From the NCBI GenBank assembly GCA_020853095.1, contig JADYZN010000061.1, forward strand, positions 62,001 through 126,000: 64,000 nucleotides of DNA, written 5' to 3'. Below, one piece after another: positions 42,382 to 47,742 of this stretch. The position numbers and the translations under genes were made by a program. This stretch comes from Phycisphaerales bacterium (GTDB lineage Bacteria > Planctomycetota > Phycisphaerae > Tepidisphaerales > Tepidisphaeraceae). Below the pieces are notes generated by a model. That model saw nothing but the letters and a program-made list of their open reading frames with translations, did not search any database and had not been told where the DNA came from. Position 1 is the stretch's first letter; each line of letters begins with the position of its first letter.

Positions 42382-43221
42382 ATGCCGACGATGCAAAAGA
42401 AAGCAAAATATTTTTATAAGAGGCATTGGCCTTTCGGGCCTGTGTCCGCCATCGGGGTCGTTTTGGCCATTTTTATTGGAACCGGCACGGTTGCCCAAGC
42501 GGCCGAACCGCCGGTGCGGGTGTTTGCGGCCATCAGTCTCAGCGAGTCATTAACCGAGGCTGCCAAAGGGTTTGAGGCGAAAACCCACATTCCCGTGGTG
42601 CTGAATCTGGGCGCCAGCGGACAGTTGGCCGCCCAGATCGAGCAGGGCGCGCCGGCAGATGTTTTCATTCCCGCGGCCGCCAAACAGATGGAACCCCTGG
42701 TCAAAATCGGCCTGATTCAGCCCGCGGATATTTCCATCATCGCTCATAATCGCATGGTATTGGTCTGTCCAAAAGACGCGGATTTCTCGCCGGATGGATT
42801 CCAAGCCTTGTCAGATTCAAGAGTTACGAGAATCGCCATCGGCGAGCCGCGTACCGTTCCGGCGGGGCAGTATGCGATGGAAATACTGAAAAGCCTGGGC
42901 TTGATGGATTTGGTCAAAGGGAAACTGGTCTATGCCGCCAATGTCCGTCAGGTGCTGGATTATGTCGAACGTGGCGAGGTGGATGCCGGCCTGGTTTATC
43001 AAAGCGATGCGATGACATCGGATCAGGTGCGGGTGGTCGCCGTGGCTTTGTCAACGTGGCATACGCCGATCGAATATCCCGCCGGAGCATTGAAAAACAG
43101 CGATCGCAAGGGGCAGGCCGAGACATTTATTCAATGGCTGGCGGGTCCGGATGGACAGAAAATCCTGCAAAAACATGGATTTGGCGATGCCGGGCCAACC
43201 AGCCGACCGGCGGATCAATGA
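42382..43221 (+). CDS. modA: Molybdate ABC transporter substrate-binding protein
   Basis: 279 residues. Signal-anchor/signal peptide to about residue 41 ending VAQAA. The mature protein has FAAISLSESLTEAAKGFEA, LNLGASGQLAAQIEQGAPADVF and GAGQ-type IAIGEPRTVPAGQYAMEIL, the ModA pattern of tetrahedral oxyanion binding. It captures molybdate or tungstate in the periplasm. It precedes modB by 24 bases. No ModE-like gene or Moco riboswitch was recognised upstream. Confidence 0.92.
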   Translation: MPTMQKKAKYFYKRHWPFGPVSAIGVVLAIFIGTGTVAQAAEPPVRVFAAISLSESLTEAAKGFEAKTHIPVVLNLGASGQLAAQIEQGAPADVFIPAAAKQMEPLVKIGLIQPADISIIAHNRMVLVCPKDADFSPDGFQALSDSRVTRIAIGEPRTVPAGQYAMEILKSLGLMDLVKGKLVYAANVRQVLDYVERGEVDAGLVYQSDAMTSDQVRVVAVALSTWHTPIEYPAGALKNSDRKGQAETFIQWLAGPDGQKILQKHGFGDAGPTSRPADQ

Positions 43222-43245
43222 CATGGGCAACCATCGGAACTGTGT

Positions 43246-43908
43246 ATGGATGATTTAGTATCGGCCCTGTGGTTGTCGGCACGGGTGGCGACGGCGGCGA
43301 CGGCGCTGGGGGCGCTGGTGGCGGTTCCGCTGGCGTTCTGGCTGGCCCATCGGCGGTTCTGGGGAAAAAGTCTTCTTGAGGCGGTGTTGACGGTTCCATT
43401 GGTGTTGCCGCCGACGGTGGTGGGTTATTTGTTGATTTTGCTCATGGGGACGCGCGGATGGGTGGGACAATGGCTGCATCAGGCGTTCGGGTATCGGTTT
43501 TTATTCAGCATGGAAGCGGCGGTGGTGGCGGCGGCGGTGGTGGGGTTTCCGCTGCTTTTGCTGCCGGCCAAGGCCGCGTTTGAATCCATCGAGCCGGAGA
43601 TGCAGGACCTGGCCCGGTTGTTTGGTGTCGGTCCGATCTCCACCTTCTGGCACATCAGCCTGCCGTTGGCCCGGCGCGGCATTGTCAGCGGGGTGTTGCT
43701 GGCGTTTGCCCGGTCGCTGGGTGAATTCGGCGCAACGGTGATGGTGTTGGGGACGACGCCCGGCCGGCGCACCTTGCCGGTCATGATTTACGTGGAATAC
43801 ATCGACCGCCACGCCGATCGCGCCTGGCCGGCGGTGGTGCTGTTGTCGGCCATCTCATTTGTTGTGATCGCCATGCGAAACCGATGGCTGGGTGGACGAC
43901 AGGTCTGA
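43246..43908 (+). CDS. modB: Molybdate ABC transporter permease
   Basis: 220 residues, about five to six membrane helices, with the permease coupling loop DLARLFGVGPISTFWHISLPLARRGIVSG (EAA-like; shown here as separate pieces: LARLFGVGPIS and HISLPLARRG) and RSLGEFGATVMVLG, typical of ModB. It forms the channel with the ModC ATPase. No modC follows: the next genes are a TPR protein and a phosphoesterase. Confidence 0.93.
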   Translation: MDDLVSALWLSARVATAATALGALVAVPLAFWLAHRRFWGKSLLEAVLTVPLVLPPTVVGYLLILLMGTRGWVGQWLHQAFGYRFLFSMEAAVVAAAVVGFPLLLLPAKAAFESIEPEMQDLARLFGVGPISTFWHISLPLARRGIVSGVLLAFARSLGEFGATVMVLGTTPGRRTLPVMIYVEYIDRHADRAWPAVVLLSAISFVVIAMRNRWLGGRQV

Positions 43909-44282: not shown

Positions 44283-45191
44283 ATGGTGGAAGGAATCGTC
44301 AATTATCTCACCGAGCCGGAATGGCGCCGGCAACATCGCTGGCGCAAGGCGATCTGGACCACCATGTCGCGCGTCGGGTTGACGGGGGTGCATGCGTTGC
44401 CGATGAATCGGCGGTGGGTGGATATTCATCGCCGGCCGATGCCGTTGCAGAATCTCGATCCCGCGTTTGAAGGGATGAAAATCGTCCAGATTTCGGACCT
44501 GCATTACAGTCCGATGGTCTGGCAGCGATATCTGATGCAGTACGTTCACTGGGTGAACGACCTGTCGCCCGATTTGATCGTCGTGACCGGCGATTTGATC
44601 ACCGGCGGATATCGTTATGCGCATCGGATCGCCTCGATCCTGGCTCATCTGAAAGCTGCGCGCGGGGTGGTCTGCACCCTGGGCAACCACGATTACAGCA
44701 TTTATGGACGCAACGGCTCGCTGGAAGGGCAACGGCGGGGGGATTATCTGGAAAAATGTCTGAGGAACCGGGGGTTGATCGTCTTGCGCAATGAGTCGCA
44801 GATGATCTGGGTCGAGGGGGCCAGCCGCCCGTTGGCGCTGGTGGGGTTGGACGATGAATGGTCGGGCCATATCAACCCCGATGAGGCGTTCGCCGAGGTG
44901 GATCCGAATTTGCCGATCATCTGTTTGAACCACAATCCGGTGAACGTGAGGGAATTGCTGGGGTATCCGTGGCAATGGATGCTCAGCGGCCACACCCACG
45001 GCCGTCAGGTGGCGACCAGCCGGTTCGGGCAGCGTTTTTATCCGCACCGGTATCGGCATTACACCCACGGGCATTACCGGGTTGAAGGACGGGATTTGTA
45101 CGTCAATCGGGGGTTGTCGTATGGCCAGCGGGTGCTGGATTGGTGCCGGCCGGAGATTACGGTTTTCAAAATCGCCCGGCGGGCGGGATAA
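44283..45191 (+). CDS. Metallophosphoesterase
   Basis: 302 residues from ATG 44283 (an in-frame TTG lies six bases earlier). Calcineurin-like metal motifs in order: QISDLHYS, VVTGDLITGG, TLGNHDYSIYG, LNHNPVN, SGHTHGRQV. Members include UDP-2,3-diacylglucosamine hydrolase-like and cAMP phosphodiesterase-like enzymes; this one has no visible signal. A second, similar but shorter gene lies at 57544-58464. Confidence 0.9.
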   Translation: MVEGIVNYLTEPEWRRQHRWRKAIWTTMSRVGLTGVHALPMNRRWVDIHRRPMPLQNLDPAFEGMKIVQISDLHYSPMVWQRYLMQYVHWVNDLSPDLIVVTGDLITGGYRYAHRIASILAHLKAARGVVCTLGNHDYSIYGRNGSLEGQRRGDYLEKCLRNRGLIVLRNESQMIWVEGASRPLALVGLDDEWSGHINPDEAFAEVDPNLPIICLNHNPVNVRELLGYPWQWMLSGHTHGRQVATSRFGQRFYPHRYRHYTHGHYRVEGRDLYVNRGLSYGQRVLDWCRPEITVFKIARRAG

Positions 45192-45271
45192 AAATTTCCT
45201 GATCGTCGTAAGCCTTTGTCGATGAATGATTAACGTCAAGCCAACTGATCCGTGAATCGGCCGGTTTTCAG

Positions 45272-45301
45272 TTGACACAAGCGGTCAAACGTGGGGATAA
45301 T
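45272..45301 (+). promoter_or_regulatory. Strong sigma-70-like promoter abutting the start codon
   Basis: Consensus -35 TTGACA (45272-45277) and -10 GATAAT (45296-45301) with an 18-base spacer. The ATG of the sigma-factor gene is at 45309, only 7 bases after the -10 box, where transcription should begin, so the mRNA would be leaderless. TTGAC and GTCAA (45272-45276 and 45284-45288) form an operator-like inverted repeat. Confidence 0.78.
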
Positions 45302-45308
45302 AGATGGT

Positions 45309-46964
45309 ATGTCGAAGTATCGCCTCGACAGCTTGGCGGAACTGGCCCGGCAACTGGAGTATGCTCCGGCGGCCCGGCGGATTTCGCAGGTGTCGGCGGC
45401 GGAAGAGCTTCTGCACGACCTCGATCCGGCCAAGGCGTATCCTTACAGTTTTGTCGTCTATCGCATCACCGGCTATCACCCCAAGGACGAGGTGACGGCG
45501 GACCTGTTGACTGGGCTGGCGTTGCAGCACGACCTGGGGGTTTTGATTGAACAGTTGAGCGACTCGCTGAATTTGCCGGCGGACTCGGCCGCCGAGCCGG
45601 TGTTGACCATCGAGCAGGTCGGCGAGCGGTTCAACGTCACCAGCAAGACCATTCAACGGTGGCGTCGAAGGGGATTGCCGGGCAGGCGGTTTGTTTTTGC
45701 CGATGGCAAGCGTCGGGTGGGGTTTCTGGTCAGCAGCGTCGAGCGGTTTTTCGCGACGCACCAGGACCAGGTGACGCGCGGCATGAATTTTTCGCAGGTG
45801 GATGCGGAAGAAAACGAGTTGATTTTGCGGCAGGCCCGGCGGCTGGCGACGCAATGCCGTTGCTGCGTGAATGAAATTGCACGCCGGATCGGTCGAAAGC
45901 TCAACCGTTCGCCGATCACCATCCTGCATACGATCCGCAGGCACGATCAGGCGAACCCGCAGCGGGCGGTTTTCCCTTCCGCGCCGGAGGTCTTGAGCGT
46001 TGAGAACAAGCAGTCGATCGCCCGGACGTATCGGCGTGGGGCGACGTTGGCGCAACTGGCCTGCCGGTATGGCCGGACCAAGGCGGCGATCTATCGCATC
46101 GTGGTCGAGCAGCGCCTGGAGAGGCTGAATCGACGCAAGGTGAAATTCATCGACGACCCGCTGTATCACCAGGCGGATGCGGCCGACGCGGTTGAGGCCA
46201 TCGTTCGACAGGAGAGCCTGGCCGACCCGCAAAAGGGCGAAACCCTGCGCGTGCCGAAGGATTTGCCGGCCTATTTGCAGGAGCTGTACCGCGTGCCGTT
46301 GCTGACGGCGACGCGGGAACGCGGGCTTTTCCTGAAATTCAATTACCACAAGTTCCAGTTCGTGCAAGTACGGCGACGGACCGATCCGCAGCTTGTTCGC
46401 GGGCGGGATTTGCAGCGGATGGAACGACAATGGAAGCTGGCCAGCGAAACCCGCAATGCCATCGTGCGGGCGAATCTGCGGCTGGTGGTCAGCGTGGCTC
46501 GCAAACATCTGCGGCCGGGTTTGGATTTGATGGAGCTGGTCAGCGACGGCAACCTGACGTTGATGCGGGCGGTCGAATCGTTTGACGTTCATCGTGGATA
46601 TCGCTTCAGCACCTACGCGACGTTGGTGCTGATGAAGGGATTTGCGCGCAGCGTGCCCTTGATGCGGGCCGGCCGGTTGGGTGGCCAGGTGGACGTGTCG
46701 GCCATGGCGAACGTGGCCGACCAGGGCGAGCGGGGCGTGGGGCATCGAATGCAGATGCGCGACCAGTTGCATCAGCTTATGAAAGTGCTCAACGAGCGCG
46801 AGCGGAACATTTTATTGAGCCATTTCGGCGTGGGGGATCGTCAAAAGCCGGTCACGTTTGAGCAGATGAGCCGGCGGATGGGCCTGACCAGCCAGCGCGT
46901 TCGGCAGATCGAACAATCCGCGCTGGCCAAACTGCGCGAGATCGCGGTTCATTCTGAAAATTGA
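45309..46964 (+). CDS. Sigma-70 family factor with an N-terminal helix-turn-helix domain
   Basis: 551 residues. Around residues 98-150 is a separate helix-turn-helix of the MerR/excisionase type (LTIEQVGERFNVTSKTIQRW, then RRRGLPGRRFVFADGKRRVG). Sigma region 2 lies near residue 380-440 (IVRANLRLVVSVARKHL, SDGNLTLMRAVESFD, HRGYRFSTYATLVL) and region 4 near 492-545 (LNERERNILLSHFGVGD, LTSQRVRQIEQSALAKLRE). An intervening region 150-370 with a second weak HTH-like segment (GATLAQLACRYGRTKAAIYR) is unlike standard sigma factors. No recognisable ribosome-binding site; promoter abuts the ATG. Confidence 0.9.
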   Translation: MSKYRLDSLAELARQLEYAPAARRISQVSAAEELLHDLDPAKAYPYSFVVYRITGYHPKDEVTADLLTGLALQHDLGVLIEQLSDSLNLPADSAAEPVLTIEQVGERFNVTSKTIQRWRRRGLPGRRFVFADGKRRVGFLVSSVERFFATHQDQVTRGMNFSQVDAEENELILRQARRLATQCRCCVNEIARRIGRKLNRSPITILHTIRRHDQANPQRAVFPSAPEVLSVENKQSIARTYRRGATLAQLACRYGRTKAAIYRIVVEQRLERLNRRKVKFIDDPLYHQADAADAVEAIVRQESLADPQKGETLRVPKDLPAYLQELYRVPLLTATRERGLFLKFNYHKFQFVQVRRRTDPQLVRGRDLQRMERQWKLASETRNAIVRANLRLVVSVARKHLRPGLDLMELVSDGNLTLMRAVESFDVHRGYRFSTYATLVLMKGFARSVPLMRAGRLGGQVDVSAMANVADQGERGVGHRMQMRDQLHQLMKVLNERERNILLSHFGVGDRQKPVTFEQMSRRMGLTSQRVRQIEQSALAKLREIAVHSEN

Positions 46965-46965
46965 A

Positions 46966-47742
46966 TCAGGGCATCGCGCCATACAGGCGGTTGTCCTGTG
47001 ACAGAAAGCCGGTTCCCGGTGCGATGCGGGATGCGCCATCCTGGTTGTTGGTGAATCGCTCCCTGAGTGATTCGGCGTGCCCATCGCAAAAGGCGACGTT
47101 GGTCATGTTCAGATGGCGAAAACCCTGTGTCCCGCCCCATCGGCCGTAATAGGAGGCATCGCCGGGATTGGGCCAGGGGGCGCGCATGAATTTGTTGGCG
47201 CCGCCGGAATACTGGCCATCGCCGAACAGGGCGGTTTGCGCGGGGTTTTTAATTTGCACGGCCTTGGCGGGGGAGACGATGGATTCCCACTGGCCGTGGC
47301 CGATGAAGCTGGTGTTGTAGTTGTAACCGGTGTACGGATCGCTCAGCCAGTTGGCCTTGCCTTCGTAGGAGGGGCATTGCTGAATCTGCGTCGTTCCGCC
47401 GCGGCCCCACAACAAGCCGGGAATCACCTCCGGGAGTTGGGCCGGCCGGTAAATGGTGGTCAGATCCCAGGCAAAGTTGTAGGTGACTCCACCCGCGTTT
47501 GAGCTGTAATACGCGATGGGGTAGGAACCCTTGTTCTCGTTGACATACGCCTGCGCGGCAATGGCCATTTGGCGCAGGTTGCTCAGGCACGCCACCCGCT
47601 GGGCGGCCTGCCGTGAACGGCTCAGCGATGGAAGCAGCAGGGCGATCAACAGCGCGATCACGCTGATGATGACCAGCAGCTCGACCAGGCTGAAGCCCCG
47701 GTTGTCGAAATCGTGCGGTTTTTCATGTGATGGTCGGCACAT
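46966..47742 (-). CDS. Pseudopilin-like protein in the B12-controlled operon
   Basis: 258 residues. N-terminal prepilin motif RGFSLVELLVIISVIALLI followed by RSRQAAQRVACLSNLRQMAIAAQAYVNENKGSYPI and C-terminal NVAFCDGHAESLRE, as in planctomycete DUF1559-like pseudopilins. The N-terminal tail before the cleavage Gly is longer than usual (about 15 residues). It lies 63 bases downstream of the PEP-CTERM gene on the same strand, so the upstream cobalamin riboswitch should control both. It ends one base from the stop of the sigma-factor gene. Confidence 0.9.
   Translation of the reverse strand: MCRPSHEKPHDFDNRGFSLVELLVIISVIALLIALLLPSLSRSRQAAQRVACLSNLRQMAIAAQAYVNENKGSYPIAYYSSNAGGVTYNFAWDLTTIYRPAQLPEVIPGLLWGRGGTTQIQQCPSYEGKANWLSDPYTGYNYNTSFIGHGQWESIVSPAKAVQIKNPAQTALFGDGQYSGGANKFMRAPWPNPGDASYYGRWGGTQGFRHLNMTNVAFCDGHAESLRERFTNNQDGASRIAPGTGFLSQDNRLYGAMP

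Follow-up and report, generated by a model that had tools for sequence, protein, structure and literature searches.

Sigma factors normally depend on separate activator proteins, and leaderless genes have been reported for several bacterial phyla. In planctomycetes, N-terminal extensions of ECF sigma factors are known but uncharacterised (PMC8103513). Planctomycetes also tend to initiate translation without a Shine-Dalgarno (SD) sequence, as reported for one genome, and leaderless and/or S1-type initiation is suspected there (PMC5397173). In the open-access literature, to which our search was confined, no description of the sigma architecture presented below was found.

Here we analyse a sigma-70-family gene of a Phycisphaerales bacterium, located in a stretch of 64,000 nucleotides that we call the window. 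Our main reading, to which we assign a probability of about one half, is that the gene encodes a sigma factor with a built-in activator at its front, and that it is transcribed from a conserved promoter that is leaderless in its own order.

Domain architecture of the protein

According to sequence and structural model, a helical domain is followed by a winged helix-turn-helix (HTH), two further HTH units and sigma regions 1.2, 2 and 4. The features are as follows.

45309..46964, + strand: sigma-70-family protein with N-terminal HTH array, 551 aa, stop included (ORF 45309-46961); profiles and alignment
45309..45599, + strand: N-terminal helical domain, residues ~1-97; AlphaFold2, pLDDT mostly >90, no Pfam match
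45600..45758, + strand: winged HTH, HTH_17/excisionase/MerR-like, residues ~98-150; profiles, AlphaFold2, structural matches
45804..45953, + strand: second predicted HTH, tri-helical, residues 166-215; model and PDB structural matches
45999..46133, + strand: third predicted HTH, tri-helical, HTH_38/sigma-4-like, residues 231-275; HTH_38 at 229-263, model, structural matches
46248..46328, + strand: sigma region 1.2, residues ~314-340; alignment with SigA, NCBIfam RpoD/SigA profiles
46461..46628, + strand: sigma region 2, Pfam region 2 at residues 385-440; E 6.8e-14
46776..46940, + strand: sigma region 4, residues 490-544; Pfam region 4, E 1.1e-15

The identification as a sigma factor, made in a preliminary description of the locus, was confirmed by orthologue comparison and profile searches. 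The Pfam profiles for regions 2 and 4 scored above their cut-offs, as did TIGR02937, which is the general sigma70-ECF superfamily model. Region 1.2 could be aligned to actinobacterial SigA/HrdB from residue ~315, and its presence sets the protein apart from ECF (group 4) sigmas. Nor is it a group 1 sigma (RpoD): the RpoD/SigA models scored far under their cut-offs, region 3 is missing and an RpoD is encoded elsewhere. We consider region 3 to be missing because in the AlphaFold2 model only a low-confidence linker of ~20 residues connects the region 2 helix, ending at residue 457, to region 4, starting at 477. Among the best Foldseek matches listed for the full model (pLDDT 90) there was nothing but sigma factors. 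With a pTM of 0.60 and a low-pLDDT linker at 464-474, this model does not fix how the front end sits against the sigma core. In the order orthologues L058 and L061, region 4.2 was degenerate or shortened, and given this degeneration these proteins may not be ordinary sigmas.

The model of the N-terminal residues 1-292 was confidently folded (pLDDT 92). A MerR/excisionase-type HTH had been proposed around residue 98, with structure prediction of residues 80-160 as a check. An HTH fold was indeed predicted there with high confidence, a winged HTH at residues 98-150 with the order helix-helix-strand-strand-helix at 101-150, and it turned out to be one of three units. The HTH_17 profile matched 64/68 orthologues at E<=0.01 and HTH_38 matched 50/68; the window protein itself reached 23.8 bits with HTH_17, under the Pfam cut-off of 27 bits, so that its assignment to the HTH_17/excisionase type follows from the profile matches in orthologues together with the winged-HTH fold of the model. 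Structural matches of residues ~97-153 included a phage terminase small subunit, Xis of phage Pukovnik and BldC (Z 6-7.4); the Z values of 6-8 found for the HTH units are modest, and unrelated helical folds also score in this range. The protein is not a member of the MerR family proper, where a coiled coil would be expected after the HTH instead of the short helices and tri-helical HTH found here. The non-standard region of ~220 residues described previously exists, but it is longer, covering residues 1-~313 and holding two more HTH units. It does not continue up to region 2, as had been stated, since residues 314-379 are region 1.2 and a linker.

Over 68 orthologues, R117, G122 and L123 were invariant and K113, T114, W118 and R119 nearly so. 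Mean entropy was 1.37 bits in the core of the winged HTH (residues 96-124), 1.21 in region 2 and 1.92 in region 4. Low entropy combined with the invariant R117/G122/L123 is, at the level of the alignment, what one would expect of a helix kept for reading DNA.

Promoter and start codon

The elements upstream of the gene are the following.

45272..45277, + strand: -35 element TTGACA; sequence, TTGAC in 25/26 order orthologue upstreams
45296..45301, + strand: -10 element GATAAT with G at -12; sequence
45307..45309, + strand: expected transcription start, leader ~0-2 nt; inferred from the -10 distance
45272..45288, + strand: TTGAC-N7-GTCAA inverted repeat, judged to be chance; 1/26 order orthologues, 0 class promoters

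TTGACA and GATAAT are separated by 18 nt, and 7 nt lie between the end of the -10 element and ATG 45309. The promoter as first described, with the expected start at or next to this ATG, was therefore recovered at the same coordinates. This site (45272-45301) was the sole promoter-like one in 44900-47200, with 11/12 matches; shuffled sequences gave 0.6 such sites on average. A search of the 3.6 Mb genome for the strict leaderless pattern TTGACN-N17/18-GATAAT-N4..8-RTG gave a single hit, and the reversed control gave none. As also claimed previously, no SD sequence precedes ATG 45309, although five 16S genes of the order carry a normal anti-SD, GGATCACCTCC. The ORF at 45309 thus has what defines a leaderless gene in sequence, a promoter at the start codon and no SD. 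An upstream GTG at 45291 was rejected as the true start. It sits between the -35 and -10 elements, where the spacer is 18 nt here and 17 among relatives; since spacer length varies between relatives, this stretch is not coding.

The preliminary description further noted a TTGAC/GTCAA inverted repeat overlapping the -35 element and proposed that the sigma binds it through its own HTH and thereby represses or tunes its own gene. The repeat is literally there, at 45272-45288, and at this exact spacing only 0.02 copies would be expected per window. With free spacing, however, the expectation rises to 1.23, about one such repeat per window. The GTCAA arm was found in 1/26 order orthologues, namely the window gene itself, and in 0/32 class promoters; it was missing even in an orthologue of the same genus with 85% identity. 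The left arm is the -35 element itself. As the repeat is conserved in no other orthologue and one of its arms is the -35 element, the argument for autoregulation falls. An inverted-repeat operator was rejected for this lack of conservation, and we regard repression or tuning through the repeat as very improbable.

Conservation of the promoter in the order

TTGAC-N16..18-(G/C)ATAAT, or a form with one mismatch, was present upstream of the sigma gene in 24/26 genomes of the order. The spacer measured 17 nt in 12 of these promoters, 18 in 10 and 16 in 2, and the -12 base was G in 21 and C in three, never T. The end of the -10 element lay 6-10 nt from the start codon in 23/24, the exception being L053 with 21 nt, which corresponds to a predicted leader of ~0-4 nt in these 23. 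Orthologue L063 has lost the promoter and carries GGAGGAA in its place; L043 is the other one of the 26 compared that falls outside the 24 with a clear promoter. Because the distance from promoter to start codon is conserved in the order, it is strongly implied that the mRNA of the sigma gene is leaderless there and translated without an SD. The leaderless promoter proposed at the outset is thus supported, and what the alignment provides is a phylogenetic footprint of it, beyond what the reading of a single sequence could give.

Leaderlessness as a general property of the order was considered and rejected. In ~670 kb of order DNA, a sample partly preselected for GATAAT, NATAAT 6-9 nt before a start was found mostly at just two genes, the sigma gene and a Sua5 gene.

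The promoter in other families

The reach of the promoter is wider than LEADERLESSNESS: it was also found ahead of orthologues in other families of the class, with longer leaders. Exact TTGAC-N16..18-NATAAT occurred in 32/100 orthologue upstreams of these families and in none on the reverse strand. By family, the counts were 7/7 in f103, 4/4 in f110, 12/13 in f111, 7/15 in f113 and one each in f107 and f6; with one mismatch allowed they rose to 14/15 in f113 and 13/13 in f111, for a shuffled expectation of 0.2 each. The -12 base of the 32 exact sites was G28, C2, A2 and T0, and leaders measured 30-252 nt. The strict promoter was absent from orthologue upstreams in families f108, f104 and f114, and relaxing the pattern in f108, f104 and f109 gave matches of which some have T at -12. 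Upstream of Planctomycetia-like orthologues no convincing match was found within 250 nt; several of these orthologues carry an SD.

The leaders of 30-250 nt upstream of f103, f110, f111 and f113 orthologues (for example L078, L151 and L165) might contain regulatory RNA. A search for Rfam elements in 20 upstream regions with such long leaders gave no match.

Distribution and gene context

Each of the 26 genomes of the order contained one orthologue. In the class, 290/298 genomes gave matches at E<=1e-20, some of the weaker of which may be other sigmas. The search across planctomycetes for sigma-70 proteins with N-terminal HTH that had been suggested earlier, run as a front-end profile, matched 91/392 genomes of a phylum sample with one copy per genome, in addition to the HTH_17 matches in orthologues given above. 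These 91 include the listed genomes of the class and many of families f32, f73 and f82. Judging from these searches, the protein belongs to a sigma-70-family lineage that Phycisphaerae share with related planctomycetes, with one copy per genome. No conserved neighbour such as an anti-sigma or partner was detected: apart from the sigma itself, no gene family occurred in more than 3/41 loci. In the window, two adjoining genes at 42382-43908 resemble, from their translations alone, the substrate-binding protein and permease of a molybdate ABC transporter.

The same genome encodes a canonical RpoD (WWIRQAITR) and a group-2-like sigma, L004 (WWIKQAIKR). As a canonical RpoD is also present, the HTH-array sigma is an additional one. 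An HTH-less paralogue, L002 (335 aa, G000:C43:86716-87378), has a similarly altered region 2.4 (RAVLKAFSR; FSTYACRAVLKAFSR).

In Rhodopirellula baltica, RB12251 (567 aa, named 'RNA polymerase specialized sigma factor') was repressed under heat, cold and salt, in a list of repressed genes that also contains ribosomal protein genes (PMC2754498). By its length it may be a member of the HTH-array sigma family.

Recognition of the promoter

The residues of E. coli RpoD that read the -12 base, Q437 and T440, are both replaced in the window protein, which carries Q437->K, T440->A, W433->L and W434->V when E. coli numbering is set by aligning the FSTYAT motif. Family-wide, Q437 is replaced by K or R in 67/68 orthologues and T440 by A in 68/68, and W434 is usually A, while the canonical RpoD of the same genome keeps the -12-reading residues. 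Because these residues are replaced and T is absent at -12, the sequences suggest that this sigma recognizes its own promoter.

More broadly, this sigma or its HTH-less paralogue might read the GATAAT-type -10 element (G-12) of the sigma gene, giving positive autoregulation and a small regulon that would include the sua5-LMWPc fusion. The absence of T at -12 in all 24 order sites and all 32 exact class sites speaks for this, as does the Sua5/LMWPc fusion gene, which has the same near-leaderless promoter with G11, A2 and C1 at -12 in the order. Several candidate rRNA promoters of the order have T at -12, a weak control. On the other hand, TTGAC-GATAAT sites also occur elsewhere, with a modest excess of 89 versus 27 in the control (26 genomes; 18/89 being the sigma gene), and RpoD may accept GATAAT. 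L058 and L061 keep a perfect promoter TTGAC despite their degenerate region 4.2; f108, f104 and f114 mostly have the same K/A residues but lack the strict promoter, and T does appear at -12 among the relaxed matches in f108, f104 and f109. Self-activation is therefore possible in our view, though on the unlikely side. It concerns the reader of the promoter and can hold together with the built-in activator.

The gene could equally be transcribed by RpoD or the group-2-like L004, both of which the genome encodes. Its promoter is near-consensus, and its -35 element is perfect whether the protein's own region 4 is intact or not. There would then be no self-regulation, and leaderlessness would be a translation-efficiency feature at the level of the order. 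What fits less well is that T was never found at -12 in so wide a set of lineages, which is unlike an RpoD promoter. For us, the odds of transcription by RpoD or L004 are evenly balanced.

The Sua5/YrdC-LMWPc fusion gene (374 aa) lies in the same genome at G000:C38:57231-58352 (locus from 57187; L201, L230). It has a near-leaderless TTGAC-N18-GATAAT in many genomes of the order, and variant, CTTATA-like -10 elements in several others. The loci assigned to it are L201, L230, L190-L195, L204, L205 and L219, except L193, which is not that gene. In two genomes, ParD-like antitoxin genes (L210, L216) immediately follow a TTGAC-GATAAT promoter sequence, at a distance of 6-9 nt from the -10 element. 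A further TTGAC-GATAAT, conserved within the genus and with a longer leader (L196, L197; G400, G000:C14), precedes a gene that by translation alone resembles PEP carboxykinase.

Role of the N-terminal half

We infer an activator-like role and DNA binding for the HTH units. Under the main reading of a built-in activator, the predicted HTH units at the front end would make contacts to DNA next to the core promoter or upstream of it. The sigma core appears weakened, being without region 3, with altered -12 readers and a variable -35 helix, and the HTH contacts would place the holoenzyme on promoters that such a core alone binds poorly. The sigma's own gene would be transcribed from the conserved TTGAC-N17-GATAAT promoter. 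In a combined version, a core sigma carrying its own three-HTH activator would have come to read G instead of T at -12 and would activate itself from a GATAAT promoter, which in one order extends up to the start codon; this seems unlikely to us.

The N-terminal half might also serve in autoinhibition or sensing, keeping the sigma core covered until it is freed by DNA, a ligand or a partner. Such a function would suit an orphan sigma that has a long, folded extension and no conserved neighbouring gene, and some ECF sigmas have known regulatory extensions (PMC8103513). However, three predicted HTH units with an invariant recognition helix speak for DNA binding, and neither profiles nor model matched any ligand-binding domain in the N-terminal half. 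We would not expect autoinhibition to be its function.

Comparison with known systems

If the built-in activator is real, this protein would be a natural activator-sigma hybrid, single-copy and found in the majority of genomes of a class that is large but poorly studied. Its conserved promoter offers a handle on the -12 base, on leader length and on the reader. A promoter that is kept while the transcript has a leader in some families and would be leaderless in one order makes a clear natural case.

With RpoD/SigA and group 2 sigmas the protein shares regions 1.2, 2 and 4, its best sequence relatives in the PDB being SigA/HrdB and RpoS. It differs from them by the absence of region 3, the altered readers of region 2.4 and a front of ~280 additional residues that hold the three predicted HTH units. 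ECF87-89 likewise have an extra N-terminal part, a planctomycete distribution, no conserved neighbour and a short linker between sigma2 and sigma4 (PMC8103513). In contrast to these groups, compared here by description, the present sigma includes region 1.2 and is closer in sequence to group 1/2 sigmas than to a minimal ECF made of sigma2 and sigma4. The HTH-less paralogue L002 resembles it in the altered region 2.4 and in the sigma2-sigma4 layout but lacks the three N-terminal HTH units. Residues 98-150 have the fold and recognition-helix motif of HTH_17, excisionase (Xis), BldC and MerR winged HTH domains; here, however, the domain lies inside a sigma factor and is followed by another HTH, not by the dimerisation helix of MerR. 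As in other bacterial leaderless genes, the -10 element directly precedes the start codon and an SD is missing, whereas here the arrangement concerns one orthologous gene, extends over an order and gives way to long leaders in other families.
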